Below, one piece after another: positions 21,912 to 36,091 of a stretch of 46,995 nucleotides of DNA. The stretch is from a virus. The notes under the pieces were generated by a model. That model was not told the origin of the DNA and made no database searches. It saw only the letters and a program-made list of their open reading frames with translations. A program made the translations under genes and the position numbers. Where the stretch lies: IMG/VR virus record IMGVR_UViG_3300030329_004682, positions 1 through 46,995 of that record, one strand, 5' to 3'. Positions within the stretch are counted from its first letter, which is position 1. Each line of letters begins with the position of its first letter.

Positions 21912-23156
21912 ATGGCCACGATCAAGCCGTATGGGAAAGGGTTTCGGGTCCGCTGGTATGTGACGATCAGGGGGTTAAATGGTGGAAAATCTAAGGAGCA
22001 TTCAAAATACCCCGGCACTCTGGACGAGGCCAAGGAGATCAAGGCCGAGGCCGAGCGAGCGAGCAAAGCGGTCAAGATGCGGACGGTCAGCGAGTTTGAC
22101 CCCGCCAAGCGGATCGAGTTCTGGATCGAAGAGGAGTATCTCAGCCGCGAGGAGTGCGAGGCCGCATTCCCCTTCTGGAAGCCCGAGCGTGATGTGCCGG
22201 CTACCTCCGAGGTCGATTGGTCGCAGCTGGAGCGAGCCTATCTCAACCACTACGAGCGGGTCAGTGGTCGCAATAGCCCGAACTACAAGTCGCAGCGCAG
22301 CCGGCTAAAGGTCGTTCTGCCGTGGCTGCGAGCATCTGTTCCCGATCTATCCCAGCTGACCGCGCTCGACGCGAAGGGCTTTCTCGATTATCTGGTCTTT
22401 GAGTGTGAGTATGCCCCCCAGACCCGCAAGCACTTCATCGACGCGCTCCACATATTGCTGGATCGAGCGGTTGATCTGGGGCTGATGGTGACCAATCTTT
22501 CGCGGGAGGTCAAGGTCGCACAGGTCAAGCGAATGAGCCATCCGCGGATACTGGCCGAGGCCGAGATCAAGTGGATCAAAGGAGCCTCCTCAGAGCCGCT
22601 CTGTTCCGCTCTGTTGCGAGGCAGCTTCCGCGCAGCGATATACCTTGGCCTATACTGTGGCTTGCGTAATACGGAGGCTGCGTGGCTCCAGTGGGACGAT
22701 CTGCGTATTAAGTCGCGGACGCTGGAGATCAAGCTGTCTACATGCCCTAATACGGGCCGGCAGCACAAGCCCAAATCGCATGAGTATCGGACGCTGGATA
22801 TGACCGACCAGCTGGCCGAGGTGCTGGAAGCGGAACAGGCGCGACAAGAAGAGGCGAAGATCGACAGCCCGTTCGTGATTGTGTCCGGTGCGCCGACGAT
22901 CAAAGAACAGACGCAGACCTCGGTCTGGCCTGAGTCATTGAATGACGCGCTGGGGAAGGTGCTAAAGCGGGGCGAGCAAGATTCGTATGGCTACTACTCG
23001 CTCAGACACACCTACGCCACCTCGATGCTCAGAGGTGGCGCGGATGTGCGGACGGTGCAGAAGTGGATGGGTCACCAGAAGCTGTCTACCACGGAGGGCT
23101 ATCTGGAGCCGCTGCGAGCCGAGGATCGACCCACGCAGCGAGCGCTCCCCTATTGA
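21912..23156 (+). CDS. int: Tyrosine-family site-specific integrase
   Basis: This 414-residue protein starts at ATG 21912, chosen because AAGGAG lies about 8 bases upstream; the frame is open to 21819. It has an N-terminal arm-binding-like segment (KPYGKGFRVRWYVT), a SAM-like core-binding domain and a C-terminal catalytic domain. Catalytic residues visible are R252 (GLRNTEA), R365 in SLRHTYATSM (the usual preceding His is Tyr), H388 (GHQKLS) and the nucleophile Y397 (GYLEP). It would recombine attP with a host tRNA-fMet gene. The stop overlaps the end of the convergent downstream gene by 7 bases. Confidence 0.92.
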   Translation: MATIKPYGKGFRVRWYVTIRGLNGGKSKEHSKYPGTLDEAKEIKAEAERASKAVKMRTVSEFDPAKRIEFWIEEEYLSREECEAAFPFWKPERDVPATSEVDWSQLERAYLNHYERVSGRNSPNYKSQRSRLKVVLPWLRASVPDLSQLTALDAKGFLDYLVFECEYAPQTRKHFIDALHILLDRAVDLGLMVTNLSREVKVAQVKRMSHPRILAEAEIKWIKGASSEPLCSALLRGSFRAAIYLGLYCGLRNTEAAWLQWDDLRIKSRTLEIKLSTCPNTGRQHKPKSHEYRTLDMTDQLAEVLEAEQARQEEAKIDSPFVIVSGAPTIKEQTQTSVWPESLNDALGKVLKRGEQDSYGYYSLRHTYATSMLRGGADVRTVQKWMGHQKLSTTEGYLEPLRAEDRPTQRALPY

Positions 23157-24776: not shown

Positions 24777-25064
24777 TTAGTTGCGATAGTTCTGGGGGTT
24801 TCCATTTGCGATGAAGATCAGCGTATCCAGCAAGTCGATCTCGTCTGTGGTCAGTTTGAGCATGGCCTCGCGGAGCTTGTCGCGGGTGGAGTTGAGGAAA
24901 TCCTCATCATCTGCGTTCTCGGGCTTTTCGATCCACTTGCTGTAAGTGTTGCCGATCCGATTGTCGAGCGCTATGGCGGCTTGGGTTTTTGCAGTTAATT
25001 TTCCGAGCTTGACTTTGTCCCACTTTATCGTGGCCCAGCTGCTGGTGGTGGTTTCGGTTTTCAT
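24777..25064 (-). CDS. Unknown small protein, first gene of a leftward early unit
   Basis: This 95-residue, highly charged, helical protein has no recognised domain. It has the AAGGAGAGCCGCC leader at its ATG and is the first gene downstream of the leftward promoter/operator at 25107-25135. It is probably expressed as soon as the shared repressor is lifted. The end (LLDTLIFIANGNPQNYRN) contains a short hydrophobic helix. Confidence 0.7.
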   Translation of the reverse strand: MKTETTTSSWATIKWDKVKLGKLTAKTQAAIALDNRIGNTYSKWIEKPENADDEDFLNSTRDKLREAMLKLTTDEIDLLDTLIFIANGNPQNYRN

Positions 25065-25106: not shown

Positions 25107-25135
25107 ATTATAGCGATGAACGCTACTCGGCGCAA
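25107..25135 (-). promoter_or_regulatory. Leftward promoter with regulon operator (site 1)
   Basis: On the minus strand TTGCGC (25130-25135), a 17-bp spacer and a perfect TATAAT (25107-25112). The spacer contains the 15-bp palindromic operator at 25111-25125 (TAGCGATGAACGCTA on the plus strand). Binding there would block RNA polymerase. It drives the 25064 to 23150 genes. Confidence 0.85.
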
Positions 25136-25179
25136 GTAGTTTTCTCATCTTTTTTAACGATTGTTCGTAAGGCACTGTG

Positions 25180-25350
25180 CTATAGGAGCTTACGACGCTC
25201 GGAAAATAGCTCGTCAGGGTCGTTTCGGACGATGACCTGATGCAGATCCTCAATGTATACGAGCAGCTGTTGGACGAGCGCCACGGAAGACCGAGAGGAG
25301 CGGATCTCCTCGATGGCCTCGTCCAACAGCTCCAGATTGACCGCGCTCAT
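25180..25350 (-). CDS. Small helical protein
   Basis: This 56-residue protein starts at ATG 25350, overlapping the stop of the upstream HTH gene (ATGA), and ends with TAG at 25180-25182. It is a charged two-helix protein (LELLDEAIEEIRSSRSSVAL, then LLVYIEDLHQVIVRND). It is too short for most gene finders, but the overlap and clean coding pattern support it. It may be a partner of the small DNA-binding protein upstream. No family is known to me. Confidence 0.65.
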   Translation of the reverse strand: MSAVNLELLDEAIEEIRSSRSSVALVQQLLVYIEDLHQVIVRNDPDELFSERRKLL

Positions 25351-25556
25351 TTGACGGTGTATTTGGCCTCGTAGTCCATCACATGCTCATACTTAAACCG
25401 GCGCTGCCGCGGGGTCACCTCGACGCAGCCGATCTGTCGGCCGCTGTAGTGCTTCCCGGTGGACATCTCCGTCAGCGCTCGCTTTGACACGCCCAGATAC
25501 TCTGCTACTACCTCGGGCTTGTTGAGTCGATCTTTGTACAGTCTCACGCGTTCCAT
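25347..25556 (-). CDS. Small excisionase/AlpA-like DNA-binding protein
   Basis: This 69-residue protein starts at ATG 25556 with GGAGAGCAAA just before it; the frame extends to 25580. VVAEYLGVSKRALTEMSTGK is a winged-helix/helix-turn-helix segment like those of AlpA or excisionase-type proteins, which pick a target-site DNA bend. The C-terminal half is basic (VTPRQRRFKYEHVMDYEAKY). With an integrase 2.2 kb away it could be the directionality factor, but it could equally be a transcription regulator. Confidence 0.65.
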   Translation of the reverse strand: MERVRLYKDRLNKPEVVAEYLGVSKRALTEMSTGKHYSGRQIGCVEVTPRQRRFKYEHVMDYEAKYTVK

Positions 25557-25591
25557 TTTGCTCTCCGTGTCTGGTCCCACAGATTATGAGA

Positions 25592-25787
25592 CCGGGGGCG
25601 TGTGCATTCCCCCGGCAAGCGCTCACCTAACGAGGACAAGGACTACCCCCGGCACACGCGCTATATAGTTCTGGCTGGGCTGCAACCGGTTCCCCTTAGT
25701 CCCGGCTGCGGATTATCCGCACTCAGCCCAGCCAAGGCCGCGGCACACACAACAAGAACAGGCTTGTGCGTCTCCCCAGCCGCGGCC
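25592..25787 (-). ncRNA. Structured intergenic element with nested hairpins (candidate ncRNA or leader)
   Basis: Perfect inverted repeats fill this 232-base gap (25557-25788). CCGGGGG (25592-25598) pairs with CCCCCGG (25609-25615), and a second CCCCCGG sits at 25646-25652. GCGTGTGC (25598-25605) pairs with GCACACGC (25652-25659). TGGCTGGGCTG (25672-25682) pairs with CAGCCCAGCCA (25724-25734), enclosing the palindrome TGCGGATTATCCGCA (25707-25721). GGCCGCGG (25736-25743) pairs with CCGCGGCC (25780-25787). Two of the pairings are mutually exclusive, as in attenuators. It lies in the leftward operon between the nuclease gene and the HTH gene. The strand is assumed from that. Confidence 0.55.
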
Positions 25788-25788
25788 A

Positions 25789-26298
25789 TTACAGTAACCT
25801 CATCAGTTCGACGGGAGCGTAGGTCACCTCGTCAACCTTCTCGCCCCCATTGATGGTGTCTTGCGTCACGCGGGTCTCGGACAGCAGCTGGCCATCGTCT
25901 GGATCGCAGATCGCCGGCTCGTATTCTCCGTCCGCGCTGATCAGCGGCCAGTATGCGATGTCCATCTGTTCGATCCGCTTGGCCAGCAGATGCGGTTTGA
26001 CCGTTGTCCATATGAGGAACGGCACCCGCAGCGCACTGGCGAGGCCGCGGCCGGCGCGGAGCTTACTGGTCGAGACCATCAGGCTCCCCCACTGCTGCAA
26101 CTGGTGCATCGTTGCCGACCGGCACTTTATTTCGCCGGCTGAGACCACCTTGCCGCCGCGGATCATAATCGCATCGACCTCGGCATCCCGATGGGTTGCG
26201 ACATACTCGCAGCACAGCGAGGCCGAGATGCGTTCCAGCACCGCGTACTCCTTGCCCTTGTATGTCGCGCCCAGCGGGGTGTCCGTGGCCAATGCCAT
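25789..26298 (-). CDS. PD-(D/E)XK nuclease-like protein
   Basis: This 169-residue protein has the core EVDAIMIRGGKVVSAGEIKCR at about residues 39-60. The Asp and then Glu-x-Lys (DAI, EIK) are spaced as in PD-(D/E)XK nucleases. An upstream Glu (EYAVLERI) could complete the site. The rest contains a Trp-rich helix and LRVPFLIWTTVKP. In a replication/recombination cluster it could act as a resolvase or end-processing enzyme. Its exact substrate is not shown by the sequence. The start overlaps the previous stop. Confidence 0.75.
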   Translation of the reverse strand: MALATDTPLGATYKGKEYAVLERISASLCCEYVATHRDAEVDAIMIRGGKVVSAGEIKCRSATMHQLQQWGSLMVSTSKLRAGRGLASALRVPFLIWTTVKPHLLAKRIEQMDIAYWPLISADGEYEPAICDPDDGQLLSETRVTQDTINGGEKVDEVTYAPVELMRLL

Positions 26299-26630
26299 TA
26301 TTTTGCCAGCTCTGCTTTACGCTTCTCTGCGGTGCAGCGCATACAGAGACCGCTGTGCAGCGGCATCCCTGTGCATTTCGCGGTCTCGCAGACGTTGTAG
26401 TAGCGAGCGCTCGCGCCGACAGAATACTTCTTGAAACCGCGACTTTCCAAGCCCTTGCCCCGCTCGGCTGGCGTGGAAATGTTGTTGTGGCTGGGGTTGT
26501 TGGTCAGCCCCAGCCGGCGCAGCCGCCGGTGGTAGGTATCGACATGCACGCCCAGCTCCTTGGCCGCAGCGTGTGCATTCGCGTGCCTTTTAAATGCTGA
26601 CCGCACCTGATCGTCGGTGGCTTTCATCAT
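26298..26630 (-). CDS. HTH protein with C-terminal Cys cluster (zinc-binding regulator candidate)
   Basis: This 110-residue protein starts at ATG 26630 (ATGATG, overlapping the upstream TGA); the frame is open to 26711. Residues 1-45 form a helix-turn-helix (NAHAAAKELGVHVDTYHRRL). A C-terminal cluster VCETAKCTGMPLHSGLCMRC has four Cys and a His that could bind zinc. It resembles small phage DNA-binding proteins linked to late or replication control. No specific family is identified. Confidence 0.65.
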   Translation of the reverse strand: MMKATDDQVRSAFKRHANAHAAAKELGVHVDTYHRRLRRLGLTNNPSHNNISTPAERGKGLESRGFKKYSVGASARYYNVCETAKCTGMPLHSGLCMRCTAEKRKAELAK

Positions 26631-27115
26631 CTGAACATCCTCGGGTTCTCGGCGCGGATCTTGGCCATATGTTCCGCGGCACGCTCGCCACTGACGCGCT
26701 CGCCGGCCCACTTCGATCTCTTCTCGCTTTCGCGGTTGCTCCTATCGTTCCACCTCTCGCTGGCTCCAGCCTCTCGTTCCCGCTGGTCGATCTCGGGGAT
26801 CTCTGCGACCACCTGCCACATCGCCGCGGGGCTGGGCTGGTATTTGATCTGGCTGCTGCGCTGGTAGTAGTCCACCGCTTTCATCCACTGGTCTTGGCTC
26901 ATCTTCTTGAGCGCCAGCTGCCACTCCTTGATCAACTCATTCCAAGCACCAGAATCATCAAATGCCGGCCAATCGGCGTTTGGGTGCAGGGCGCGGAGCC
27001 GGCGCAGACCGTGCCGCCACGCCTCGTTCGATATTTCACGCGGAGCCGAGGGCTGCTTCAAGTCCATCTGTCCCTGATCCTTCAGTAGATCCTGTATAGA
27101 GCTTACGTTTGCCAT
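26627..27115 (-). CDS. Replication loader-like protein (G39P/lambda P-type, tentative)
   Basis: This 162-residue protein starts at ATG 27115 with GGAG about 9 bases upstream. The middle shows ELIKEWQLALKKMSQDQWMK then YQPSPAAMWQVVAEIPEID. This helical layout resembles helicase loaders such as G39P, where a short domain is followed by a PxP-type loop. The C-terminal half is highly charged. It overlaps the initiator gene upstream by 80 bases, which argues for a shared role in starting replication. The family call is tentative. Confidence 0.6.
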   Translation of the reverse strand: MANVSSIQDLLKDQGQMDLKQPSAPREISNEAWRHGLRRLRALHPNADWPAFDDSGAWNELIKEWQLALKKMSQDQWMKAVDYYQRSSQIKYQPSPAAMWQVVAEIPEIDQREREAGASERWNDRSNRESEKRSKWAGERVSGERAAEHMAKIRAENPRMFR

Positions 27116-27797
27116 GTTTGGTCTCCATCTTTTTCCATGCAAGTACTACGTCCATAGTCATTTTGTTTTTCGGGGTCAGCTTGCGGAGCCGTGCCGGCCC
27201 GTCGCGGACCACCCAATCCAGAGCTGCCCGATGCTCCTTGATCTGATCGATAGCTCGATAGATCTCCTCGGCGCTGTAGTGATCGTCTCTGTGGAGCAGC
27301 GCCAGCGCGTTCTCTGCCTCGACGCGACTCACCCACACCGGCAGCTCCCCCACATCTGGATGGACAGCCTCGATGTAGCGCTGGAGCGCTTCGCCAGAGT
27401 CGTACGCAGGGTCCGGTTGCCAGCTCGGATCGACAGGCGCACGCAACGATGCCTCGCTGCGGCCACCTTGGTACGCGTCATAGTTGGTGACGGTGACCAG
27501 TAGCCCCTCGCGGCTGCTCTCGCAGCTGATCATCGAAGCCTCGACAAGCTGCTCAATCATGCGGCCCAGCTCGCGCCGAGATAAAGTTTTGAGCTTGTCC
27601 CGGTTGGTGCCGTACTTGAGCGCGTCAGCCAGTGCTGCGTATGTTGTCCGCAGCTGGCCGGTGCGGAGGTTGCGATAGATCGCCTCGGCCTCGGTGGCTG
27701 CGCCCAGCAACAGGTGGCTGAACAGGCGCAGCGTGTGGGGCTGGTGCCAGATCCAGTTCTGCTCGATCTGCCGGTGGAGCTTGATCCAGCCGCTCAT
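27036..27797 (-). CDS. Phage replication initiator (winged-helix replisome organiser)
   Basis: This 253-residue protein begins MSGWIKLHRQIEQNWIWHQP, the typical opening of phage replisome-organiser/DnaD-like proteins, followed by LRLFSHLLLGAAT and TTYAALADALKYG. A winged-helix domain covers about residues 1-115 and ends at the VTVTNYDAYQ phrase. The C-terminal part is helical and ends in a Gly/Ser tail. Such proteins bind the phage origin and recruit the loader encoded next. The ATG overlaps the ParB stop. Confidence 0.85.
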   Translation of the reverse strand: MSGWIKLHRQIEQNWIWHQPHTLRLFSHLLLGAATEAEAIYRNLRTGQLRTTYAALADALKYGTNRDKLKTLSRRELGRMIEQLVEASMISCESSREGLLVTVTNYDAYQGGRSEASLRAPVDPSWQPDPAYDSGEALQRYIEAVHPDVGELPVWVSRVEAENALALLHRDDHYSAEEIYRAIDQIKEHRAALDWVVRDGPARLRKLTPKNKMTMDVVLAWKKMETKHGKRKLYTGSTEGSGTDGLEAALGSA

Positions 27798-28651
27798 ACT
27801 GCCACCGCTGCCGGTTTGTGGTCGCGGAGGATTTGGACCGCTCGCGTCAAAGTCTGGCTCGAAAAATCATCAAGACCCCCGTGCGCGATGACTCCCTCGA
27901 TCCCGTCAATCAGCGCTTGATGCGGGTCAACCGGGGTCGGCAGCGCCGGCAGATCGTCAAACATCTCCGTCTGTTCTGCTGATCGCTTCAGCCTGATCTG
28001 CTCCTGTATGTCCTTGAGCTTGACCCTTCCCCCGTTCTCGATCAGCGCTGTCTGTTCGGCTCGCGTGAGCCGCGCCAATTGCTTGGCTGTCGATACCGAG
28101 ATCTCACCGCTCCGCAGCTGATCGAGTCCAAGCTCCGACAGGCTGCTGCGGAGATCGATCAGAGTCTTGATCTGGGTGCGCCCAAGCCCGGTCTGAGCGC
28201 TGATCTCGTTGACCGCGTCTCGTAGGTCTCCCACCTCAACGTCGGCCCGTAGCCGGTCATCGAGGAGCGCCCAGAGCGCATCGGCCTCGGCTCCCGCATT
28301 GGCACCGCGCACCAGATTCTCGGCGGCTGTGATTTTCGCCATGTAAACAGCAACTCTGGCCCTATACTCGGGGTTGAGGTGCAGCTTGATGGTGTCTGGA
28401 TTGTAGACCCGAGCCATCACCAGTTCCTCGCCCAGCTCTCGGAGCGCAGAAATTCGGCGCTGCCCCGCGTGGATGCGATAGATCGTCTTGTGTTTATCTG
28501 GATCGGCATCGAGATCCTTAAGCACGATCACCGGCACCTGTTGGCCGATGAGCGCGATGCTGCGCTGGAGCGTCATGTCGTGCTTGATCGTGGTCTGTTC
28601 GACAAGATCGAGCGGGATGCTCTCCAGTGTTGATGTTAGTTCTTCTCGCAT
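27794..28651 (-). CDS. ParB/Spo0J-like nuclease-fold DNA-binding protein
   Basis: This 285-residue protein has an N-terminal ParB domain with LIGQQVPVIVLKDL and IYRIHAGQRRISALRELG. A central helix-turn-helix follows (EISAQTGLGRTQIKTLIDLR). Leader AGGAGATCAGGGAC precedes ATG. ParB proteins are CTP-dependent clamps that load at parS; phages also use ParB-fold proteins as nucleases or regulators. There is no ParA gene in the window, so a partition role is not assured. Confidence 0.85.
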   Translation of the reverse strand: MREELTSTLESIPLDLVEQTTIKHDMTLQRSIALIGQQVPVIVLKDLDADPDKHKTIYRIHAGQRRISALRELGEELVMARVYNPDTIKLHLNPEYRARVAVYMAKITAAENLVRGANAGAEADALWALLDDRLRADVEVGDLRDAVNEISAQTGLGRTQIKTLIDLRSSLSELGLDQLRSGEISVSTAKQLARLTRAEQTALIENGGRVKLKDIQEQIRLKRSAEQTEMFDDLPALPTPVDPHQALIDGIEGVIAHGGLDDFSSQTLTRAVQILRDHKPAAVAV

Positions 28652-28663
28652 GTCCCTGATCTC

Positions 28664-29437
28664 CTACGTAGGTGTGATGACCGTCCTGTTGCGGTTCTGG
28701 CCAACCGCGGATTGGACGGAGTCGGGAAGTTGATTGTCGTTGCTGACGTACTCAAAATGGTGGAACGGAAGCTGCAAAAAGACCCCCGCCGAATACTCGA
28801 CGGGATCGTCGTAATACAAGGGTGTCATCACCGAGTACTGAACGCTCGGGGTCTGTATGACCGTGGTCACGCTCGTCCGTTCGATGATGCGATGCGCCGG
28901 CGTGTCAAATGCGACCCCAAGATCCCACGTAGCGAATGTGCAGCTCAACTCGGGGATGTCCTTGTCCTCAACCCGCCGCAGCGCGTGAGTGCAATCCCGC
29001 GGCGTTTCGGGGTCGGGCCGCTGTATCACCGGCCTGATGCCCTGTAGCACCGGCCGCAGCTCATAGCTCCCCTTGACGATGGCTCTGGGGTGGATCAGGA
29101 GTATGCGGCTGTCTTGGTCGAGGCTGGAGTAGTCAGCCTCGCGGTGGACCGGCACACGCTTTGAGAATCCATGCCGCGCTCCCTCGACCACAAAGTCCGC
29201 GATGGTCGGGTAGTATTCCGCGCCGACCCACAGAAGTAAATCGGTGACCCCCGTGTCCCGCTTGTGCAGCCGCGCACCGCGGAACGGTCCCTCGCCCCAC
29301 GGGATGGGTGGGTCAAGAACAAACGCTTCGACGGGGATGCCGCTGGAGCCTGTCGGGACGCAGATGTATAGCCCCCCTTCGGCTCGGGTGCCGCACCCTC
29401 GCTCGATGCTGCTATCTATCGTGGTTATGCTTGCCAT
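28664..29437 (-). CDS. Unknown phage/plasmid-type protein paired with a SWIM protein
   Basis: This 257-residue protein contains LLLWVGAEYYPTIADFVVEG and HGFSKRVPVH, a phrase I link to an uncharacterised family in phages and plasmids. Three regions seem beta-rich, with Pro-rich stretches (FVLDPPIPWGEGPFRG). It lacks an obvious enzyme motif. The leader AAGGAGCGGCC supports ATG 29437. The upstream SWIM gene ends inside this gene's start, implying co-translation. Confidence 0.7.
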   Translation of the reverse strand: MASITTIDSSIERGCGTRAEGGLYICVPTGSSGIPVEAFVLDPPIPWGEGPFRGARLHKRDTGVTDLLLWVGAEYYPTIADFVVEGARHGFSKRVPVHREADYSSLDQDSRILLIHPRAIVKGSYELRPVLQGIRPVIQRPDPETPRDCTHALRRVEDKDIPELSCTFATWDLGVAFDTPAHRIIERTSVTTVIQTPSVQYSVMTPLYYDDPVEYSAGVFLQLPFHHFEYVSNDNQLPDSVQSAVGQNRNRTVITPT

Positions 29438-29699
29438 TTTTGGCCGCTCCTTGGTTTGGTTTGAGTCTTGTCACTCTCGGTTCTCGCTCTGTTCCGATCC
29501 ATCCGCTACGCAGCTCCGTCCGCGCTGCTGTGATATGTTTGCACTGCTTTGTGCCGCCTCGGTAGGCGTGGTCTGGACACTCGCAATCCCACATCGTGCC
29601 AGTGTGGGCATCGCGCCGAGTGACGCGATACCGCTTGTCTCCGCTCTCGATCAGATAGTGTAGCGTGATCATGTTGACGTTGGTGTAGTCGTGCGCCAT
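29412..29699 (-). CDS. SWIM zinc-finger protein
   Basis: This 95-residue protein starts at ATG 29699, overlapping the upstream TAA (TAATG). The SWIM signature is WDCECPDHAYRGGTKQCKHI, a C-x-C...C-x-H zinc site. SWIM domains bind DNA or other proteins in recombination (the Shu complex, bacterial helicase partners). The tail is basic. It lies right after a single-strand annealing protein, consistent with a recombination partner. Confidence 0.85.
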   Translation of the reverse strand: MAHDYTNVNMITLHYLIESGDKRYRVTRRDAHTGTMWDCECPDHAYRGGTKQCKHITAARTELRSGWIGTEREPRVTRLKPNQGAAKNGKHNHDR

Positions 29700-30367
29700 T
29701 AGAAGGGCAGACCATCGTCGTTCGGATTGCCCTGTACGATCTCTGCAAGCATGAGATTGCACTCTTCGGCCAGCGGACCCGTTGCGTCGAGCGCCCTGTC
29801 GATCTCTCCGTTGCTCTTCTCCACGATCTGGTCGAGGACCGCATACGCAGCCTTAGCGTCTGCCGCCTTGGCCTTGCCCCAGATGTCCCGATCTACGTCT
29901 CCGGTGAATTTCCTCTTGCCGTTCTGCTGCTGCGCTGCCGGCTGCTGCTGCTGACTCTGCTGCTGCTGGGGCTGGCTCTGGGGCTGCTGCTGTGCCGGCT
30001 GCTGCTGTTGGTTCTGCTGCTGGGGCTGCTGCTGGATGACCGCGGCCAGTTCGTCGGCCGAGGCGATCTCGTCACCGGCCCAGCCAGCAAATGCCAGAGC
30101 GCGACCAAGTGCGGATGTCTCCGCATTTTCCAGAGCGCTGGTCTTGTTGATCTTTGAGGCGGCTCTATACTCCTCGGCGTGGCCGACATAGCGCTGTATC
30201 CCGTTCCCGTGGTCGATGTGCAGCTCGACCCTGACGATCACTCGCTCCGAGTCGTGGTGCAGCACCTCGCTCTGCACGGAGTAGTTGGCGATGCCGATCT
30301 CGGTCTTGATCATCTCCATGCGCTCTGCGACGGGCAGATACTGTTTCCCGTGGATGTTTACTGGCAT
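29699..30367 (-). CDS. Single-strand annealing protein (Rad52/ERF-like) with poly-Gln linker and SSB-like tail
   Basis: This 222-residue protein starts at ATG 30367 with AAGGAG before it. The N-terminal domain (to about residue 120) contains KTSALENAETSALGRALAFAG, a hallmark of phage single-strand annealing/ERF-type proteins. A Gln/Pro-rich linker at about residues 120-160 contains many consecutive Gln. The C-terminus ends NPNDDGLPF, closely matching the acidic tip of SSB proteins that docks host repair and replication enzymes. It would pair phage DNA strands during recombination and replication. Confidence 0.85.
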   Translation of the reverse strand: MPVNIHGKQYLPVAERMEMIKTEIGIANYSVQSEVLHHDSERVIVRVELHIDHGNGIQRYVGHAEEYRAASKINKTSALENAETSALGRALAFAGWAGDEIASADELAAVIQQQPQQQNQQQQPAQQQPQSQPQQQQSQQQQPAAQQQNGKRKFTGDVDRDIWGKAKAADAKAAYAVLDQIVEKSNGEIDRALDATGPLAEECNLMLAEIVQGNPNDDGLPF

Positions 30368-30378
30368 TTTGCGGCTCC

Positions 30379-30504
30379 TTATTTGGTGAGTTCGGTGAGG
30401 ACGTATGGTATTATTCTGATCGCCAGATAGCCGGCGCTGATGGCTACAGCGATACGCATGACCGGCTCGATCCTGTCGAATAGATCGCGGCTGTGGCGGC
30501 TCAT
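30379..30504 (-). CDS. Very small one-helix membrane protein
   Basis: This 41-residue protein has an ATGA overlap with the stop of the zinc-ribbon gene. The helix at residues 16-38 is MRIAVAISAGYLAIRIIPYV, with charged ends (MSRHSRDLFDR, LTELTK). Short early membrane peptides like this are common in phage regulons and often act on host membrane enzymes. The function here is unknown. The call rests on the overlap and clean reading frame. Confidence 0.55.
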   Translation of the reverse strand: MSRHSRDLFDRIEPVMRIAVAISAGYLAIRIIPYVLTELTK

Positions 30505-30689
30505 ACGGCACGCTCCAGCTGCTGATGCAGCTCGGTGCGACCCTCGGCAGCGGCCAGATGCTTGTGTAAGTCTGTGGGCTGGATCAGGGGCAGATCGCAC
30601 TGGCTGCACGCGCCTGTCTCGATCCGCTCGGCTGCGCCACAGGCGGGGCAGTGCTTGACACTCCGCTGCGGCACGGGTAGGTTATACAT
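30501..30689 (-). CDS. Small zinc-ribbon protein
   Basis: This 62-residue protein starts at ATG 30689 with AAGGAGCGCGTT. HCPACG and CSQCDL give two CxxC pairs, forming a zinc ribbon at residues 13-31. A helical tail follows (LHKHLAAAEGRTELHQQL). It is the first gene of the leftward replication operon after promoter site 2. It probably binds nucleic acid or RNA polymerase, but no specific family can be named. Confidence 0.75.
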   Translation of the reverse strand: MYNLPVPQRSVKHCPACGAAERIETGACSQCDLPLIQPTDLHKHLAAAEGRTELHQQLERAV

Positions 30690-30721
30690 AACGCGCTCCT
30701 TGATAGGGTGTGTTACTTTCC

Positions 30722-30770
30722 GGCACCGAGGGTATTGCTTGGCGGCTCTCTCCTCGGTGCCACTTTTTTG
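30722..30770. other. Strong hairpin in the leader of the leftward operon
   Basis: GGCACCGAGG (30722-30731) pairs perfectly with CCTCGGTGCC (30752-30761). On the plus strand it is followed by six T (terminator form). On the minus strand it lies in the 5' leader of the zinc-ribbon operon, between promoter site 2 and its start at 30689. Within the loop on the minus strand is GGAGAGAGCCGCC, close to the shared translation leader. Confidence 0.65.
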
Positions 30771-30780
30771 TTCTGTCCTA

Positions 30781-30809
30781 AATATAGCGATGAACGCTAT
30801 TCTTGTCAA
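30781..30809 (-). promoter_or_regulatory. Leftward promoter with regulon operator (site 2)
   Basis: On the minus strand TTGACA (30804-30809), 17 bp, TATATT (30781-30786), with the operator at 30785-30799. It drives the leftward replication operon beginning at 30689. An A-tract upstream of the -35 could act as an UP element. Confidence 0.85.
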
Positions 30810-30849
30810 CAGGTTTTTTTGGCTACCCCTTACATTGAGGGCATTTTGC

Positions 30850-30888
30850 GTATTTATGCTTGTTCGACGGACGTAAATACTATATATT
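30850..30888 (+). promoter_or_regulatory. Promoter of a leaderless small XRE gene, with a separate inverted repeat
   Basis: TTGTTC (30860-30865), 17 bp, TATATT (30883-30888), ending only 9 bases before the ATG at 30898. The mRNA would have practically no leader. GTATTTA (30850-30856) and TAAATAC (30874-30880) form an inverted repeat around the -35 region and spacer, a different operator from the six-site family. Confidence 0.6.
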
Positions 30889-30897
30889 GATGGTATT

Positions 30898-31107
30898 ATG
30901 CTCCTGACAGATACAGACCGAGAGTGGACCGGCACCGCACTGCGCCAACTGAGAACAGACCGCGGCTGGACACAGGCAGACCTCGCCCAAGAGATCGGGG
31001 TCGCACTCGGGACGCTGTGGGCTTGGGAGTCGGATCGCCGGCCGGTCAATCGCACGGCTGCGCGACTGCTCGACCTGATTACTGACGATAGGATACTACC
31101 GCGCTGA
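30898..31107 (+). CDS. Small XRE/Cro-like regulator, leaderless mRNA
   Basis: This 69-residue protein is almost all helix-turn-helix: RQLRTDRGWTQADLAQEIG and TLWAWESDRRPVNRTAARLL. No Shine-Dalgarno site precedes the ATG, and the inferred start of transcription is at or next to it, like lambda cI from PRM. The nearby inverted repeat in its promoter suggests autoregulation. It converges on the long HTH gene from 32316 and is ended by a terminator at 31164-31201. Confidence 0.75.
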   Translation: MLLTDTDREWTGTALRQLRTDRGWTQADLAQEIGVALGTLWAWESDRRPVNRTAARLLDLITDDRILPR

Positions 31108-31163
31108 TATAGCGCACACAGAAATAGCACTGGCATGTCCCTGATCGGATTGGTTGGTGCTTT

Positions 31164-31201
31164 GCTCCCGCGAGGCTGGTCCCTTGCGGGGGCTTTTTTT
31201 T
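31164..31201 (+). terminator. Intrinsic terminator after the small XRE gene
   Basis: GCTCCCGC (31164-31171) pairs with GCGGGGGC (31186-31193) with one G:U, and eight T follow. It separates the rightward XRE transcript from the convergent repressor-like gene. The gap 31108-31374 contains this terminator and little else I can assign. Confidence 0.85.
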
Positions 31202-31345
31202 GGCATTAAGCGCAGGTCTGGTCACCCACGCCCCGCCACTAAATCAAGTATGAAATATATGCTACGGGCCGAGCCGTGTCAACTTAAATTTCGTACGTAA
31301 ATGACTCTTCCGCTTGCAGTTACGGTATTTATGCAACCGCGGGGG

Positions 31346-31431
31346 GGTGGGGCGCTTTTGGACCCGCACTATGCTTATTTCTTCCAATTTTTGTGAGTTA
31401 GCGGGGCATTATCGTCCAAAAGCGCCCCACC
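31346..31431. repeat. 17-bp perfect inverted repeat across the end of the long HTH gene
   Basis: GGTGGGGCGCTTTTGGA (31346-31362) and its exact complement (31415-31431) are 52 bases apart. One arm lies in the last codons of the long HTH gene and the other just past its stop codon. In the mRNA it would fold into a long stem bracketing the stop. Confidence 0.75.
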
Positions 31432-32316
31432 GGCATCTTTTAGCGCAATCGGAGTGGATCGCTCACCAGATCCCGCAGAAATATTTTTATCGCCATGACC
31501 GAGGATTCGATGCTTCTCGGAGATTTCGTACGCGTTCCAAAATTTCCGTATCCAGAGCGGCGGCTCGTCTGAGCGCAGTGGCCACATAGGCTGGAGAGAG
31601 ACAATACTGGACACGGTGCGCTCCAATAGCAGACCACTGTGTTCGACGTAATCGGGTATTGTGTCGCTCTCCAAATCTGTAACCCGCGTCTCTGTCATCG
31701 TTGTCAGCGCAACAACTCGCCGCGCCCCTTGCACAAAAATATGAGTAATATCCAAATGCCGATTGTGGTACGGATTGTCTCGCTTCCATGCGGCATTTGC
31801 GCGATTTTCTTCTTCCCAGCTCAAGCCGAGAAGGTCGATGTCGCTGTCGCGCATTGCATCGCTCAGACGACCCCAGTTTTCAATCTCAGTGTTGGCTGCA
31901 ATAGAGGCTTCCACCTCTGCTCCCACCGGCCATCTATCCACTGCGTCTACCGGTATGGTCCTGTCGTTTTTGTCGTACTGCGTGGACGAGCAGCGATAGT
32001 TCGGCGAGATATATTGGCTGGCGGCATCTACGCCCTCGGGGCGTATCTCGCATTGCAGCGTGGCGATGACCGCAGTATCGATGACCTCGACTCCGGTATA
32101 TGTCTGTGGTGCGGGTATTGTCGGAGATACAAGATCTTGCGTGGTGATCCGCAGCTCGCTTGCTATACGTTCCAGCGCTGACCATCGCGCATCAGCCTCG
32201 CCCGAAATCATGCGAGAGATGGCGCGGCGGCTCACGCCGCTACGGCTGGCCAACTCTCGCAAGGACATATTTGCCGATGCCATTGCCACGGTGATGTTTG
32301 TCCCGATATGGTTCAC
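31375..32316 (-). CDS. Long HTH regulator, repressor candidate
   Basis: This 313-residue protein starts at GTG 32316. The N-terminal XRE helix-turn-helix is MSLRELASRSGVSRRAISRM and the rest, about 240 residues, is unassigned. It lacks the S24/LexA Ser-Lys cleavage signature, so it is not a classical SOS-cleaved CI. It is the second gene after promoter site 3, hence probably controlled by the regulon it may itself repress. A 17-bp inverted repeat covers its end. It may sense a different signal. Confidence 0.7.
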   Translation of the reverse strand: MNHIGTNITVAMASANMSLRELASRSGVSRRAISRMISGEADARWSALERIASELRITTQDLVSPTIPAPQTYTGVEVIDTAVIATLQCEIRPEGVDAASQYISPNYRCSSTQYDKNDRTIPVDAVDRWPVGAEVEASIAANTEIENWGRLSDAMRDSDIDLLGLSWEEENRANAAWKRDNPYHNRHLDITHIFVQGARRVVALTTMTETRVTDLESDTIPDYVEHSGLLLERTVSSIVSLQPMWPLRSDEPPLWIRKFWNAYEISEKHRILGHGDKNISAGSGERSTPIALKDAGGALLDDNAPLTHKNWKK

Positions 32317-32349
32317 GGCGCTGCCACTCCATGTGTAGGGTTGTAGGGC

Positions 32350-32733
32350 TTACTCTGTCACTGGCCGGCCTCGCTTGCCACTGGCGATCAACTCCTTGAA
32401 TTTGGCCAAATCCTCGCGGCTGTATGTCCGACTCCCCTGCCCCCCGGTTGCACGCTTGACCCCGATCTGTTCTCGGTCTGCCAGCCTCCTGATCCACGCT
32501 ACCGAGCAATCGAGCTGCGCGGCGATGTCGCTGGTGCTGTAGTAGACCGGTGCGGCCTTGTCGGATTGTTCGGCCAGAGCAGCGTCGAGGTCTCCGAGTA
32601 TCCCCGTTGCGTATCGCAGCGCTCGGCTGGCCTCGATGTCGGTATCGCCGCGGTTGACGCGCTCCTCAATCAACTCCACAAATGCCGCGGCCGAGCGTCG
32701 AGCGCTGGTGATACCATTGTCGCGTTGTAGCAT
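32350..32733 (-). CDS. DNA-binding protein with MerR/excisionase-type HTH
   Basis: This 127-residue protein starts at ATG 32733 with GGAG 9 bases upstream; the frame is open to 32814. A helical N-terminal domain (ARRSAAAFVELIEERVNRGD) is followed by a helix-turn-helix/winged domain (YSTSDIAAQLDCSVAWIRRL, then GSRTYSREDLAKFKEL). The promoter carries the shared operator, so it is in the regulon and is a candidate for the operator-binding repressor or anti-repressor. Confidence 0.75.
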   Translation of the reverse strand: MLQRDNGITSARRSAAAFVELIEERVNRGDTDIEASRALRYATGILGDLDAALAEQSDKAAPVYYSTSDIAAQLDCSVAWIRRLADREQIGVKRATGGQGSRTYSREDLAKFKELIASGKRGRPVTE

Positions 32734-32765
32734 TTTTCTGTTCTCCGTGGTTAGGGTTACCCCTA

Positions 32766-32794
32766 AACGTAGCGATGATCGCTCCAGAGCGCAA
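32766..32794 (-). promoter_or_regulatory. Leftward promoter with regulon operator (site 3)
   Basis: On the minus strand TTGCGC (32789-32794), 17 bp, TACGTT (32766-32771), with a slightly degenerate operator TAGCGATGATCGCTC at 32770-32784. It drives the two regulator genes at 32733 and 32316, implying autoregulation. Confidence 0.7.
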
Positions 32795-32821
32795 GAAAAA
32801 AGCTTCCGCACCAAATTACAA

Positions 32822-33085
32822 CCGTTTTGACACCCGTTTTGACACCGTCAATATACTATACATGTGGGCAGTGGTCAACTTAACATTTTTTCGTTAAGCT
32901 CAAAAGCTGCCCATCCAATTTTGCCTCGTAACTGGCCGTAAAAACAATAGTTTGCGAAGTGGCCAAATCCAAAAGCTGCCCATCAAATCGATTTTTCGCC
33001 CATACATTTTCGTTTCGTAACCTCGTAAATAAACAGGCACTTGCAGAGTGGCGATTTTGCATTCTCGCCCATCTTATTAAGAATA
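32822..33085. repeat. AT-rich repeat region, candidate replication origin or regulator target
   Basis: The gap 32734-33236 has no gene I support. It holds CCGTTTTGACAC twice in tandem (32822-32833, 32834-32845) and an inverted repeat CTTAAC/GTTAAG (32879-32884, 32893-32898). An exact 15-bp repeat CAAAAGCTGCCCATC lies at 32901-32915 and 32970-32984. Further GCCCAT copies lie near 32999 and 33068. AT-rich stretches run from about 33076 to 33115. It sits between divergent operator-bearing promoters. Iteron-like origins have this look, but no initiator site is proven. Confidence 0.45.
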
Positions 33086-33165
33086 AATAGAGTAATTAGT
33101 TATTAATTATATAGCTCCCGTTTTTCGGTTCTTGAAAAAAAGTGCGGATATCCCAAAAAAAGAAC

Positions 33166-33194
33166 TTGCATAGAGTAGCGTTCATCGCTATATT
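33166..33194 (+). promoter_or_regulatory. Rightward promoter with regulon operator (site 4)
   Basis: TTGCAT (33166-33171), 17 bp, TATATT (33189-33194), operator TAGCGTTCATCGCTA at 33176-33190, and an upstream A-tract with AGAAC. It drives the rightward early unit that starts at 33237. Confidence 0.85.
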
Positions 33195-33236
33195 ATTATC
33201 AGCAACAAGTAAACAACCCAAACACGGAGAGCAAGA

Positions 33237-33473
33237 ATGAGCCATCGCACTGAAAGCACACTCATCGAAAGCGGAGTCGAGGCAGTGAAGGATATCATCA
33301 AGGTCTACGAACTCAATCCCACCCCGGCTTTCAAGATGTGGAAAGAGCGCACAACGGCTGGTCCCGCGGTACGCCGCGAGGTCTACAAGCGGGTGACCAC
33401 ATCGAACGATGGCCACTACAACGTCAACCACGGCACCGGCACCGCTTGCTGGAACGTCGAGGACTACTTCTAA
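33237..33473 (+). CDS. Orphan early protein 1 of the rightward block
   Basis: This 78-residue protein has GGAGAGCAAGA before the ATG. It has a charged N-terminal half (SHRTESTLIESGVEAVKDII) and a Tyr/Trp-rich C-terminal half ending GHYNVNHGTGTACWNVEDYF. It has no recognised domain. It is the first gene of the rightward regulon and so likely expressed at once after derepression; such genes often act on the host. Confidence 0.7.
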   Translation: MSHRTESTLIESGVEAVKDIIKVYELNPTPAFKMWKERTTAGPAVRREVYKRVTTSNDGHYNVNHGTGTACWNVEDYF

Positions 33474-33485
33474 GCACCCAACCTC

Positions 33486-33507
33486 GGGCGGGGCTTCGGC
33501 CTCGCCC
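33486..33507 (+). other. C(UUCG)G tetraloop hairpin 1
   Basis: GGGCGGGGC (33486-33494), TTCG, then GCCTCGCCC (33499-33507). It lies between two early genes and has no T-run. The same kind of hairpin recurs at three more intergenic gaps in this block. Confidence 0.75.
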
Positions 33508-33530
33508 ACCCCAAGCCAAGGAGAGCCGCC

Positions 33531-33806
33531 ATGCTCAACAAGTCCCTACCCCATCCCAACGATCTGCCGGCTTGCACCGGCTCGACGGACGAGGTCAAAG
33601 TCGTCTCTCAGTATCACATCGACAAAAGCATGTATGGAGACAGCCGGCCGAGCTGGGAACAGATGTCGGAGGACACGCAGCGCTGGTGCGCCGATTATTC
33701 AGCCAGCTACTACGCAGCGCCGAAGGGAGATTTCTTCCTCCGCTGCGCCATCGATACGGCGAGGGCCGAGGGCAATAAAATCGTCGTAGTCGAGAATTTG
33801 AGTTAA
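33531..33806 (+). CDS. Orphan early protein 2 of the rightward block
   Basis: This 91-residue protein is preceded by AAGGAGAGCCGCC. It has a Trp/Tyr-rich middle (MSEDTQRWCADYSASYYAAP) and an end GNKIVVVENLS. No domain is recognised. It is short, acidic and soluble, consistent with a host-interacting early phage protein. A tetraloop hairpin separates it from the upstream gene, and a fresh promoter follows it. Confidence 0.7.
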   Translation: MLNKSLPHPNDLPACTGSTDEVKVVSQYHIDKSMYGDSRPSWEQMSEDTQRWCADYSASYYAAPKGDFFLRCAIDTARAEGNKIVVVENLS

Positions 33807-33814
33807 AAAAGAAC

Positions 33815-33843
33815 TTGACAAGTAGCGATGAACGCTATATATT
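33815..33843 (+). promoter_or_regulatory. Rightward promoter with regulon operator (site 5)
   Basis: TTGACA (33815-33820), 17 bp, TATATT (33838-33843), operator TAGCGATGAACGCTA at 33823-33837. It begins just after the stop of the 33531 gene, giving the 33890 gene its own start of transcription. Confidence 0.85.
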
Positions 33844-33889
33844 TGAGGTAGATTGAAAAACGCAGCACACACCCACAAGGAGAGCCGCC

Positions 33890-34198
33890 ATGATCGACCA
33901 GAAAACTCAACTCACCGTCACGATTCGCCCCAACGAAAAAGAGAAGTACAACGCCAAGCTCTTCGTGATGGTCGAGCTGGATGGCCAGAAGATGCGGGGC
34001 TACGCGGACACCGAGATACAGGCCGCGGCCGTAGTCGCACAGGCCACCGCGGCTTTGCTGGGCCAGCAGCAGAGCGAACCGCAGATCGCGGAAGAGATCG
34101 AGGCCGAAAAGGTCGAGGCGCAGCCAGATGAGCCGACTCACTCGATGGACGATCTACTGGACCCCTTCCTCGATGACGATGCCCAGAAAGGAGCGTAG
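33890..34198 (+). CDS. Orphan early acidic protein 3
   Basis: This 102-residue protein is preceded by AAGGAGAGCCGCC. A basic N-terminal strand (LTVTIRPNEKEKYNAK), then a region with MVELDGQKMRGYADTEIQAA, and a strongly acidic C-terminal half (AEEIEAEKVEAQPDEPTH, DDLLDPFLDDD). Acidic tails like this are typical of DNA mimic or inhibitor proteins, though that is only a suggestion here. Confidence 0.7.
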   Translation: MIDQKTQLTVTIRPNEKEKYNAKLFVMVELDGQKMRGYADTEIQAAAVVAQATAALLGQQQSEPQIAEEIEAEKVEAQPDEPTHSMDDLLDPFLDDDAQKGA

Positions 34199-34216
34199 GC
34201 ATCGCAGCACCAGCCG

Positions 34217-34236
34217 GCAGGGGCTTCGGCCCCTGC
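34217..34236 (+). other. C(UUCG)G tetraloop hairpin 2
   Basis: GCAGGGGC (34217-34224) pairs perfectly with GCCCCTGC (34229-34236) across TTCG. It sits between the 33890 and 34267 genes. No T-run follows. Confidence 0.75.
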
Positions 34237-34266
34237 TCCACTAAAACACCGATCAGGGAGATGTAA

Positions 34267-34560
34267 ATGGATCTTTTACGTTTGGACTTTGTACCCGGTG
34301 ACATCGTGATGATGTCTACCGACCACTTCAACGCAGAGGATTGCGGTGGAGACATGAGGTTTCGACTCGCGGGGGATACGTTTGGAATGAAAGCAAGCGC
34401 AAACGGTTCCTGTTGCGTCGGAGAGTGGCTCGTTGACCGAGAGTATTGTCGGGTCGAGCGGTGGCAGATCGATTTTGACGCAACGTCCGACCTGTGGGCC
34501 GCGCAGGGCAGGGAGGCACTGCAAACGAAGCACCATGTAGAATATGGAGACGAGCAGTAG
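34267..34560 (+). CDS. Orphan early protein 4
   Basis: This 97-residue protein has GGGAG about 6 bases before the ATG. It is compact, with Cys at positions suggesting a metal or disulfide site (AEDCGGDMRFRLAGD, GSCCVGEW, EYCRVERW). It is not a recognised family. The last part is soluble and acidic. It lies between two tetraloop hairpins. Confidence 0.7.
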   Translation: MDLLRLDFVPGDIVMMSTDHFNAEDCGGDMRFRLAGDTFGMKASANGSCCVGEWLVDREYCRVERWQIDFDATSDLWAAQGREALQTKHHVEYGDEQ

Positions 34561-34574
34561 ATAAGTGCGCCAAT

Positions 34575-34598
34575 GGGCGGGGGCTTCGGCCCCCGCCC
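34575..34598 (+). other. C(UUCG)G tetraloop hairpin 3
   Basis: GGGCGGGGGC (34575-34584) pairs perfectly with GCCCCCGCCC (34589-34598) across TTCG, a 10-bp stem. It precedes the membrane-anchored HTH gene. Only TT follows. Confidence 0.75.
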
Positions 34599-34627
34599 TT
34601 CAAATCCAATCCGATCAGGAGAGATGT

Positions 34628-35332
34628 ATGACCATTATGGCAGATCAAAGCAAGCGAAAGTGGAGCGGTGCCGAGCCGCAGCACGCTGTACCCCCATCCC
34701 CGGTTTCGCCCGTCGAGGTCGTAAAAATTCTTGACGAGCCGGCCGAGGGCTTCCACCGCGAACGGATCAAGCCCAGCGCGGGTTTGCTCAAAGACCTACG
34801 GACGTACCTCAAATTCAATATGCGCGAGATGGCTTTGGCGCTGGAGATCTCAACCGGCCACTACTGCAATCTTGAGCGCGGCGTGAGCGCCATCCCCAAA
34901 AAGCCGCGGAACTACGGCAACACGCGGCATCTGCGGGAGCGGATCAGGGATCTGGCAGCGCATGTCAGCCAGCACGATGAGCTGCCGCCCGAGATGCTGG
35001 AGCGACTCACCGCGCCAGCGCCGGCCGAACAGACGGTGGAACAGGAGCCGGTGGAGCAGCCGGCGCAGACACGCGACGAGGTCTACGAGGCCGAGAAGCG
35101 CCAGCCGCACGAACGGCTGACGCTGCGTTGCTCTCCCGATGTCGCGGCCGAGTTTCGCCAGACAGCGATTGACGAGAATCGCCGGCAGTACGAGGTCTTC
35201 GATGATATGTTCCGCAGCTACAGGGACAGCGGTACCCCGGCACCGAGTCATCGCGGCCGAATCGCGGCAATAGCTACCGCGGCCGCTGCGGCCGGCATCG
35301 GCATCGGCATCGCACTGGCACCATTGATCTAA
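34628..35332 (+). CDS. Membrane-anchored HTH protein with RHH-like segment
   Basis: This 234-residue protein starts at ATG 34628 with AGGAGAGATGT before it; the frame is open to 34565. Residues about 55-100 form an XRE-like helix-turn-helix (KFNMREMALALEISTGHYCN). An acidic, Gln/Glu/Ala-rich linker follows. Residues about 150-195 (ERLTLRCSPDVAAEFRQTA, DENRRQYEVFDDMFRSYRDS) look like a small helical, ribbon-helix-helix-type module. The last 24 residues form a hydrophobic helix (IAAIATAAAAAGIGIGIALA). A DNA-binding protein with a C-terminal anchor is unusual in phages and could tether DNA to the membrane. Confidence 0.7.
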   Translation: MTIMADQSKRKWSGAEPQHAVPPSPVSPVEVVKILDEPAEGFHRERIKPSAGLLKDLRTYLKFNMREMALALEISTGHYCNLERGVSAIPKKPRNYGNTRHLRERIRDLAAHVSQHDELPPEMLERLTAPAPAEQTVEQEPVEQPAQTRDEVYEAEKRQPHERLTLRCSPDVAAEFRQTAIDENRRQYEVFDDMFRSYRDSGTPAPSHRGRIAAIATAAAAAGIGIGIALAPLI

Positions 35333-35340
35333 TCCATCGG

Positions 35341-35374
35341 GATCGGGCTGGCGGCTTCAACTGTCAGCTCGATC
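35341..35374 (+). other. Hairpin after the membrane-anchored HTH gene
   Basis: GATCGGGCTG (35341-35350) pairs with CAGCTCGATC (35365-35374), with one G:U pair. No T-run. It lies in the short gap before the DUF3846-like gene. Confidence 0.55.
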
Positions 35375-35395
35375 CCCTACCAAACCGAGGACACT

Positions 35396-35692
35396 ATGGC
35401 CAAAAAAATCACGATGACAATCATCCCGGCAGACGGTGCCGGCGAGATCGAAGAACGGACGATCACCGAATGCCCCGCGCTGGAGGAATTGCAGCAGCTG
35501 GTAGGCGGCTACATCGAGCTGGTCAAGGTCCGCGTGGCCGGCCGAGCTACCGAGATGATCTGCGACGAGGACGGAGAGCGGAAACAGTTGACGGTCAACA
35601 ACAGGGCGCTGGATCGCATCGAGGCAACGGCCAGCTACATGCCAACGCTGGTCGGGCCTGTGGTGATTTTCTCGGAGCCGGTGCTGGCGTAA
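35396..35692 (+). CDS. DUF3846-like protein
   Basis: This 98-residue protein carries ALEELQQLVGGYIELVKV, MICDEDGERKQLTVNNRALD and VGPVVIFSEPVLA, in the order of the DUF3846 family seen in phages and plasmids. The family function is unknown. It is soluble and probably a single small domain. The family call is from recognised phrases, not a search. Confidence 0.75.
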   Translation: MAKKITMTIIPADGAGEIEERTITECPALEELQQLVGGYIELVKVRVAGRATEMICDEDGERKQLTVNNRALDRIEATASYMPTLVGPVVIFSEPVLA

Positions 35693-35721
35693 AAAAAGTT
35701 TGATTGGGGGCAAAAAAGAAC

Positions 35722-35750
35722 TTGCATATAGTAGCGATCATCGCTATATT
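35722..35750 (+). promoter_or_regulatory. Rightward promoter with regulon operator (site 6)
   Basis: TTGCAT (35722-35727), 17 bp, TATATT (35745-35750), operator TAGCGATCATCGCTA at 35732-35746, a nearly perfect palindrome. AAAAAAGAAC precedes the -35, as at sites 4 and 5. It drives the genes from 35797 on. Confidence 0.85.
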
Positions 35751-35796: not shown

Positions 35797-36039
35797 ATGA
35801 AAGACAAGACCCCCGCCTACTACGTCGAGATCCGCAGCCCCGGCCACTTCCCCACTGACTTGATCTACGACTACAAGCGTCACGGCAAGCCCACGGACGC
35901 AGTAGCCGCCGAGATGCTGGAAGTCTACGGCCCAGAGATGGGCGAGATCGACACGCTCCAGATCATCCGCAACACCGGCTCCGATAAGGGCGAAGTCGTA
36001 GCCTCGGCCACCGGGACCATCACTCTGACCATCAACTAA
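35797..36039 (+). CDS. Orphan early protein 5
   Basis: This 80-residue protein is preceded by AAGGAGAGCCGCC; the frame is open to 35704. The sequence (PAYYVEIRSPGHFPTDLI, DTLQIIRNTGSDKGEVVA) suggests a small alpha/beta domain. It has no recognised family. It is first in the unit driven by promoter site 6. Confidence 0.7.
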   Translation: MKDKTPAYYVEIRSPGHFPTDLIYDYKRHGKPTDAVAAEMLEVYGPEMGEIDTLQIIRNTGSDKGEVVASATGTITLTIN

Positions 36040-36046
36040 ATCGCAG

Positions 36047-36068
36047 GGGCGGGGCTTCGGCCTCGCCC
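36047..36068 (+). other. C(UUCG)G tetraloop hairpin 4
   Basis: GGGCGGGGC (36047-36055), TTCG, then GCCTCGCCC (36060-36068), the same stem sequence as hairpin 1. It precedes the 36092 gene and has no T-run. Confidence 0.75.
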
Positions 36069-36091
36069 ACCACCTATCAAGGAGAGCCGCC

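Follow-up and report, generated by a model that had tools for sequence, protein, structure and literature searches.

A 15-bp palindrome repeated inside six promoters of an environmental phage as the predicted operator of an early-gene regulon

The DNA analyzed here, hereafter the window, is the whole 46,995-nucleotide stretch of IMG/VR record IMGVR_UViG_3300030329_004682, a virus contig known from environmental DNA only. It carries a leftward replication operon, a leftward operon for two predicted helix-turn-helix (HTH) proteins (P0002-P0001), several rightward early genes, a small XRE-type gene (P0003) and a tyrosine integrase gene (Table 1). Six promoter-like sequences ahead of these early, replication and regulator genes each contain one copy of a 15-bp palindrome, TAGCGATGAACGCTA or a close variant, and it is these six copies, and the protein that may read them, that we consider below.

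Table 1. Palindrome-bearing promoters and other features of the window (positions in the window; promoter sequences given as -35 hexamer, spacer length, -10 hexamer)
Feature	Position	Strand	Description
Site 1 / promoter 1	25107..25135	-	TTGCGC-17-TATAAT; palindrome TAGCGATGAACGCTA at 25111-25125; precedes 24777-25064, 24118-24765, 23915-24121 and 23150-23902 (DUF5131)
Site 2 / promoter 2	30781..30809	-	TTGACA-17-TATATT, 11/12 consensus; palindrome at 30785-30799; precedes leftward replication operon (~30690 down to 25180) with DnaD-like helicase loader at 27036-27797
Site 3 / promoter 3	32766..32794	-	TTGCGC-17-TACGTT; weakest palindrome, TAGCGATGATCGCTC, at 32770-32784, one core mismatch; precedes P0002-P0001 operon
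Site 4 / promoter 4	33166..33194	+	TTGCAT-17-TATATT; palindrome at 33176-33190; precedes 33237-33473
Site 5 / promoter 5	33815..33843	+	TTGACA-17-TATATT, 11/12 consensus; palindrome at 33823-33837; precedes 33890-34198, 34267-34560 and 34628-35332
Site 6 / promoter 6	35722..35750	+	TTGCAT-17-TATATT; perfect 15-bp palindrome TAGCGATCATCGCTA at 35732-35746; precedes 35797-36039 and rightward genes toward terminase
Palindrome-free near-consensus promoter	32850..32878	-	TTGACC-17-TATATT; reads into P0002-P0001
Palindrome-free promoter	31254..31282	-	TTGACA-17-TATATT, 11/12 consensus; antisense to P0003, aims at leftward operon
P0001	31375..32316	-	313 amino acids; N-terminal Cro/CI-type (XRE) HTH; Pfam HTH_26 7.7e-8, HTH_3 1.5e-7
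P0002	32350..32733	-	127 amino acids; HTH_17/MerR_1-type, excisionase-like; phrog_66 2.4e-4; first gene of P0002-P0001 operon
P0003	30898..31107	+	69-amino-acid XRE protein; HTH_31 3.1e-9; no palindrome promoter
Distinct inverted repeat	30850..30880	.	GTATTTATGC...GACGTAAATAC in P0003 promoter; candidate separate operator
HTH protein in promoter 5 operon	34628..35332	+	234 amino acids; alternative candidate binder
Tyrosine integrase	21912..23156	+	414 amino acids; phrog_1 1.4e-39; XerA 4e-9

The six copies share the consensus TAGCG(A/T)TNA(A/T)CGCTA, in which the A/T variation at positions 6 and 10 leaves the outer dyad intact. Searching the 47-kb window with TAGCGATGAACGCTA and up to 3 mismatches returned 12 strand matches, corresponding to six loci read on both strands, compared to 1.1 matches expected in a shuffled window; 12 matches were reached in 0 of 100 shuffles. 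A second, independent scan for the TAGCG-N5-CGCTA core found five exact copies and one with a single mismatch, with no locus beyond these six in the window at 0 to 1 mismatch, and 0.054 cores are expected there by chance under a mononucleotide model. Among all 15-mers of the window, every other pair of 5-bp complementary arms was used at most twice. These results confirm that the six-copy palindrome claimed in a preliminary description of this DNA is real.

When read in promoter orientation, all six palindromes are found between TTGnnn and TAnnnT hexamers separated by exactly 17 bp, a spacing that had also been described beforehand. Each lies wholly within the spacer or overlaps the start of the -10 hexamer with its last two bases, and the chance of a 15-mer of the window falling inside such a spacer is about 0.46%. 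The palindrome at 33823 is shifted by 2 bp toward the -35 relative to the other sites, yet is still inside the spacer, so that the palindrome is an element separate from the promoter hexamers. Since it is located upstream of the predicted transcription start, the palindrome would not be transcribed and is thus expected to work as a DNA site and not as an RNA hairpin. A general promoter scan of the window gave 6 promoters compared to 7.3 in shuffles; with no excess there, the case for a regulon rests on the palindromes.

We then looked for the sites in related sequences. IMG/VR searches with P0001 and P0002 returned only the near-identical record L001, which shares 99.8% identity with the window across 12.9 kb; all five sites that it covers are unchanged. 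The portal protein retrieved three further records from IMG/VR (L012-L014), whereas the ParB-like protein retrieved no relatives. L012 is about 92% identical to the window and keeps site 6 with two changes, as TAGCGTTCATAGCTA; most of the 7 bases between the TTG and the palindrome differ from those of the window.

Divergence from L001 is concentrated at P0003 and its promoter, with 26 of the 27 differing alignment columns located within 30820-31350. The P0003 gene shows six synonymous and zero amino acid changes, indicating a real and constrained gene. In its promoter, the repeat GTATTTATGC...GACGTAAATAC becomes GCATTTATGC...GCATAAATGC in L001, the outer change occurring on both arms (30851 T>C and 30879 A>G), whereas the five covered palindromes stayed as they were. 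This symmetric change next to constant palindromes suggests that the repeat at 30850-30880 is a further operator, probably one that serves P0003, and, going by this one sequence pair, that P0003 would not be the reader of the six palindromes. The motif GTATTTAYGC shows no enrichment across the window as a whole (45 occurrences versus 40 expected), so that the second operator is proposed from the L001 comparison and not from counts.

The same layout also occurs in an unrelated prophage (G001) of the methanotrophic bacterium Methylosinus sporium DSM 17706, where TAGCGACAATCGCTA, TAGCGACTTCAGCTA, and TAGCGATTATCGCTA are present within 1.7 kb, each in the TTG-N7 register. The pattern TTG-N7-TAGC-N7-GCTA-WAA has three matches in the 3.8-Mb Methylosinus genome, all inside the prophage. 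As had been proposed, the site was sought in relatives and other prophages, and it was recovered at 5/5 covered sites in L001, at site 6 in L012, and at three sites in Methylosinus. A related pattern adds a fourth place outside the prophage, at C15:15215 (L037:3216-3240), between a MazF/PemK-like reading frame and trpB. This promoter-like place is followed by a terminator-like hairpin within ~100 nucleotides downstream and is possibly a small RNA or the remnant of an element.

Host control of prophage promoters is generally known, and this extra chromosomal copy would fit a palindrome read by a host regulator such as LexA, placing the early genes in the host SOS or another response. We consider this improbable. 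Within its order, the promoter-embedded pattern was detected in Methylosinus sporium alone (1/398 genomes), and no other genome among 385 of the class carried it, which argues against a widespread host regulator. In addition, the core with up to 1 mismatch is no commoner in Methylosinus than a reversed control (8 versus 15), and the palindrome differs from the alphaproteobacterial LexA box, GTTC-N7-GTTC. The many host promoters expected of a LexA/SOS site were not found in the Methylosinus host, where this was tested. A bolder proposal, which we regard as rather unlikely, is that a single promoter-embedded type of operator is common to unrelated temperate phages and is read by an undescribed repressor family, of which P0001 would be an example with a novel C-terminal domain, and that the Methylosinus prophage repressor also controls the chromosomal promoter by trpB.

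Other matches to the operator pattern were set aside. Those in ten IMG/VR records (L002-L009, L016, and L019) are single, several lie in coding sequence, and they were taken as chance; L031-L036 represent unrelated GCTATAATA-type promoters or chance, as for L020 and L021, from the genome scan, each is a lone match in a high-GC stretch and was discounted. One AT-rich (~30% GC) isolate record (L017/G005) contains a well-placed TAGCGATTTTCGCTA in a consensus promoter at L026:2373, just past an integrase gene, which may be a further instance or chance.

Because it encodes a tyrosine integrase, the window phage is probably temperate, and neither an attachment site nor a prophage copy of it was found. 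Positions 46615-46862 match 1-254 at 92.5% and 46851-46995 match 525-669 at 99.3%, as if the two ends of the contig met inside a repetitive structural gene; given this near overlap, the contig is probably near complete. The portal and terminase are ~35% identical to those of Pseudomonas phages of the Ab18 kind, and these virion genes would place the phage in or near the Mesyanzhinovviridae. By terminase, the closest phages are the Manatee Spring phages MW202621 and MW202657, but their early regions are different. Lysogeny is disputed in the Mesyanzhinovviridae: a 2025 study of 75 genomes found no integrase and argued against integration (PMC11946847), whereas the window phage, a relative, carries an integrase. 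The window also encodes, at 38154-39452, a ParB-like N-terminal domain fused to a DNA methyltransferase.

Taken together, the six sites, their spacer placement, their retention in relatives, the integrase, and the layout in an unrelated prophage form the observed basis for the following explanation. We consider it very probable that the palindromes make up a dispersed-operator regulon, and likely, with somewhat less confidence, that they are six operators bound by one phage-encoded dimeric repressor, most likely P0001. Bound between the -35 and the -10, the repressor would exclude RNA polymerase, so that five early promoters, two leftward and three rightward, would be switched off together; at site 3, the weakest of the six, it would also damp the operon that encodes it. 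In the lysogen, P0002-P0001 would still be expressed from the promoter at 32878-32850, which has no palindrome. If P0001 is the reader, it would protect TAGCGATNATCGCTA, least at site 3. That the sites are bound, that binding represses, which protein does so, and that this happens in the lysogen are all predictions drawn from sequence features.

Part of this circuit can be read from the promoters. Promoter 3 combines the weakest palindrome with a poor -10, and the second promoter ahead of the same operon, at 32878-32850, is plausibly a candidate lysogenic maintenance promoter of P0002-P0001. This layout is the one expected for an autoregulated repressor operon with a maintenance promoter; site 3 does lie within the promoter of the P0002-P0001 operon, whose products are candidate binders only. 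The six promoters had been said to drive early, replication, and regulator genes, including the regulator genes themselves, and such genes are indeed located downstream, P0002-P0001 included, but P0003 is not under a palindrome. The idea that all early transcription is held off goes too far, since the promoters at 31282-31254 and 32878-32850 are near consensus and have no palindrome, the former sitting upstream of the palindrome-controlled leftward promoter. As for one repressor acting in the lysogen, a temperate life is likely from the integrase and the Methylosinus prophage has the same layout; the repressor may act in the lysogen or as a Cro-like shut-off.

Several noncoding elements surround these promoters. 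Repeats spaced by 69 bp (CAAAAGCTGCCCATC twice and TTYTCGCCCAT twice) lie at 32901-33072, in the AT-rich stretch that separates P0002 from the rightward operon, and may mark an origin or a further operator. In the leader of the leftward operon (30722-30761), a perfect 10-bp inverted repeat, GGCACCGAGG/CCTCGGTGCC, flanks the ribosome-site-like GGAGAGAGCCGCC, which is followed by no start codon. Downstream of several rightward early genes are GC-rich GGCTTCGGCC-type hairpins that lack a T run (33486-33533, 34200-34240, 34570-34600, and 36047-36094), and two of these blocks are 90% identical.

P0001 is favored as the binder because it has an XRE domain and because the site 3 promoter lies ahead of its operon. 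Based on gene position, HTH type, and elimination, we name it the putative reader tentatively, with slightly less than even confidence. The phage encodes at least five HTH proteins besides P0001, and another of its regulators (the 34628-35332 protein, P0002, or a Cro-like P0003) might read the operators instead, mainly for lytic early-gene shut-off and not prophage silencing; this is a serious possibility, though we doubt it somewhat more. It is in line with the Methylosinus prophage, where a small XRE protein is encoded in an operon that follows one of the sites. The 34628-35332 protein has an XRE-like HTH_19 match (0.0019) and a weak ribbon-helix-helix BrnA_antitoxin match (0.0017), both below the cut-off, and a hydrophobic C terminus. 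P0003, in turn, has the same protein sequence in L001, where its own repeat has changed symmetrically on both arms, an indication that P0003 uses an operator of its own. P0002 is MerR-like, and MerR activators work on spacers of 19 to 20 bp and not 17, whereas all spacers here are 17 bp. Two tandem, mutually related HTH_26 genes at 39916-40534 appear to be poor candidates because they are absent from L012, which keeps site 6.

Several observations count against P0001 or against the regulon itself. The C-terminal part of P0001 has no known relatives, and the searches gave no phage relative or characterized relative of the protein; among 385 alphaproteobacterial genomes, only generic XRE domains matched. 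Its predicted structure is of low confidence (predicted local distance difference test score, pLDDT, of 36.5), too low to give the fold of its C-terminal part. No relative of P0001 was detected in the Methylosinus genome, so that the reader may differ between the two phages. The promoter hexamers are consensus matches only. Finally, comparing the window with itself showed that 40 to 100 bp around some sites, leader included, are 75 to 95% alike, which suggests that several sites arose through duplication of a promoter cassette and that the six are not fully independent in origin. Those blocks would also be expected if the palindrome were a mere by-product of such duplication with no binding protein, which we consider improbable: the surroundings differ at site 3, and at site 2 apart from the promoter itself, the A/T variants keep the outer dyad, and the layout recurs in the unrelated prophage.

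An equally improbable explanation is that the sites serve a ParB/KorB-like protein (27794-28651) both as a centromere and for silencing, in the way that KorB acts on plasmid RK2. The KorB operator, TTTAGCSGCTAAA, has TAGC/GCTA arms related to the palindrome, and ParB-like proteins are encoded by the phage. Two reports describe KorB as both a partition protein and a repressor (PMC5577506, PMC11790492). However, the Methylosinus prophage shares the operator but has no ParB_N match, partition is not needed where an integrase is present, and all six sites are embedded in promoters with no cluster elsewhere.

A repressor regulon of the kind proposed would provide a near-complete, testable wiring diagram of the early genes of a phage known from metagenomes only, with the operator as a sequence handle for predicting immunity groups. 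Methylosinus is in culture, so the matching layout of its prophage is open to experiment.

Several known systems resemble this arrangement. The CI/Cro operators of lambda are symmetric, and the Arc site at Pant of P22 lies between the -35 and the -10, as here; lambda-type switches have tandem operators at one switch, whereas the window phage has one operator per promoter over 10.6 kb. In mycobacteriophage L5 and cluster A, one repressor likewise acts at multiple genome sites, early promoters included, but these stoperators are asymmetric, number 20 to 30 per genome, and are mostly outside promoters (PMC6550527, PMC9283540). The L5-type stoperator is also oriented with transcription, whereas here 6/6 sites are near-symmetric and within promoters. 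Closer is C1 of phage P1, in which one repressor, many dispersed operators (22 in P1), a two-promoter repressor operon (c1 is transcribed from P1coi and Pc1), and autoregulation are combined as predicted here, although the operator of P1 is asymmetric and 17 bp long and that of the window a 15-bp palindrome confined to promoter spacers (PMC8546580). SPbeta, a Bacillus prophage, shares the dispersed-operator kind through MrpR and its 15-bp SPBRE, which was noticed in silico long before MrpR binding was shown; MrpR is tyrosine-recombinase-like, whereas the predicted binders of the window phage are HTH proteins (PMC10516654). In line with a dispersed-operator regulon of a temperate phage, the palindrome is repeated at early promoters and absent elsewhere, and the phage carries an integration gene, from which integration is predicted. 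The predicted regulon of the window belongs with the known dispersed operators of P1 C1 and SPbeta SPBRE.

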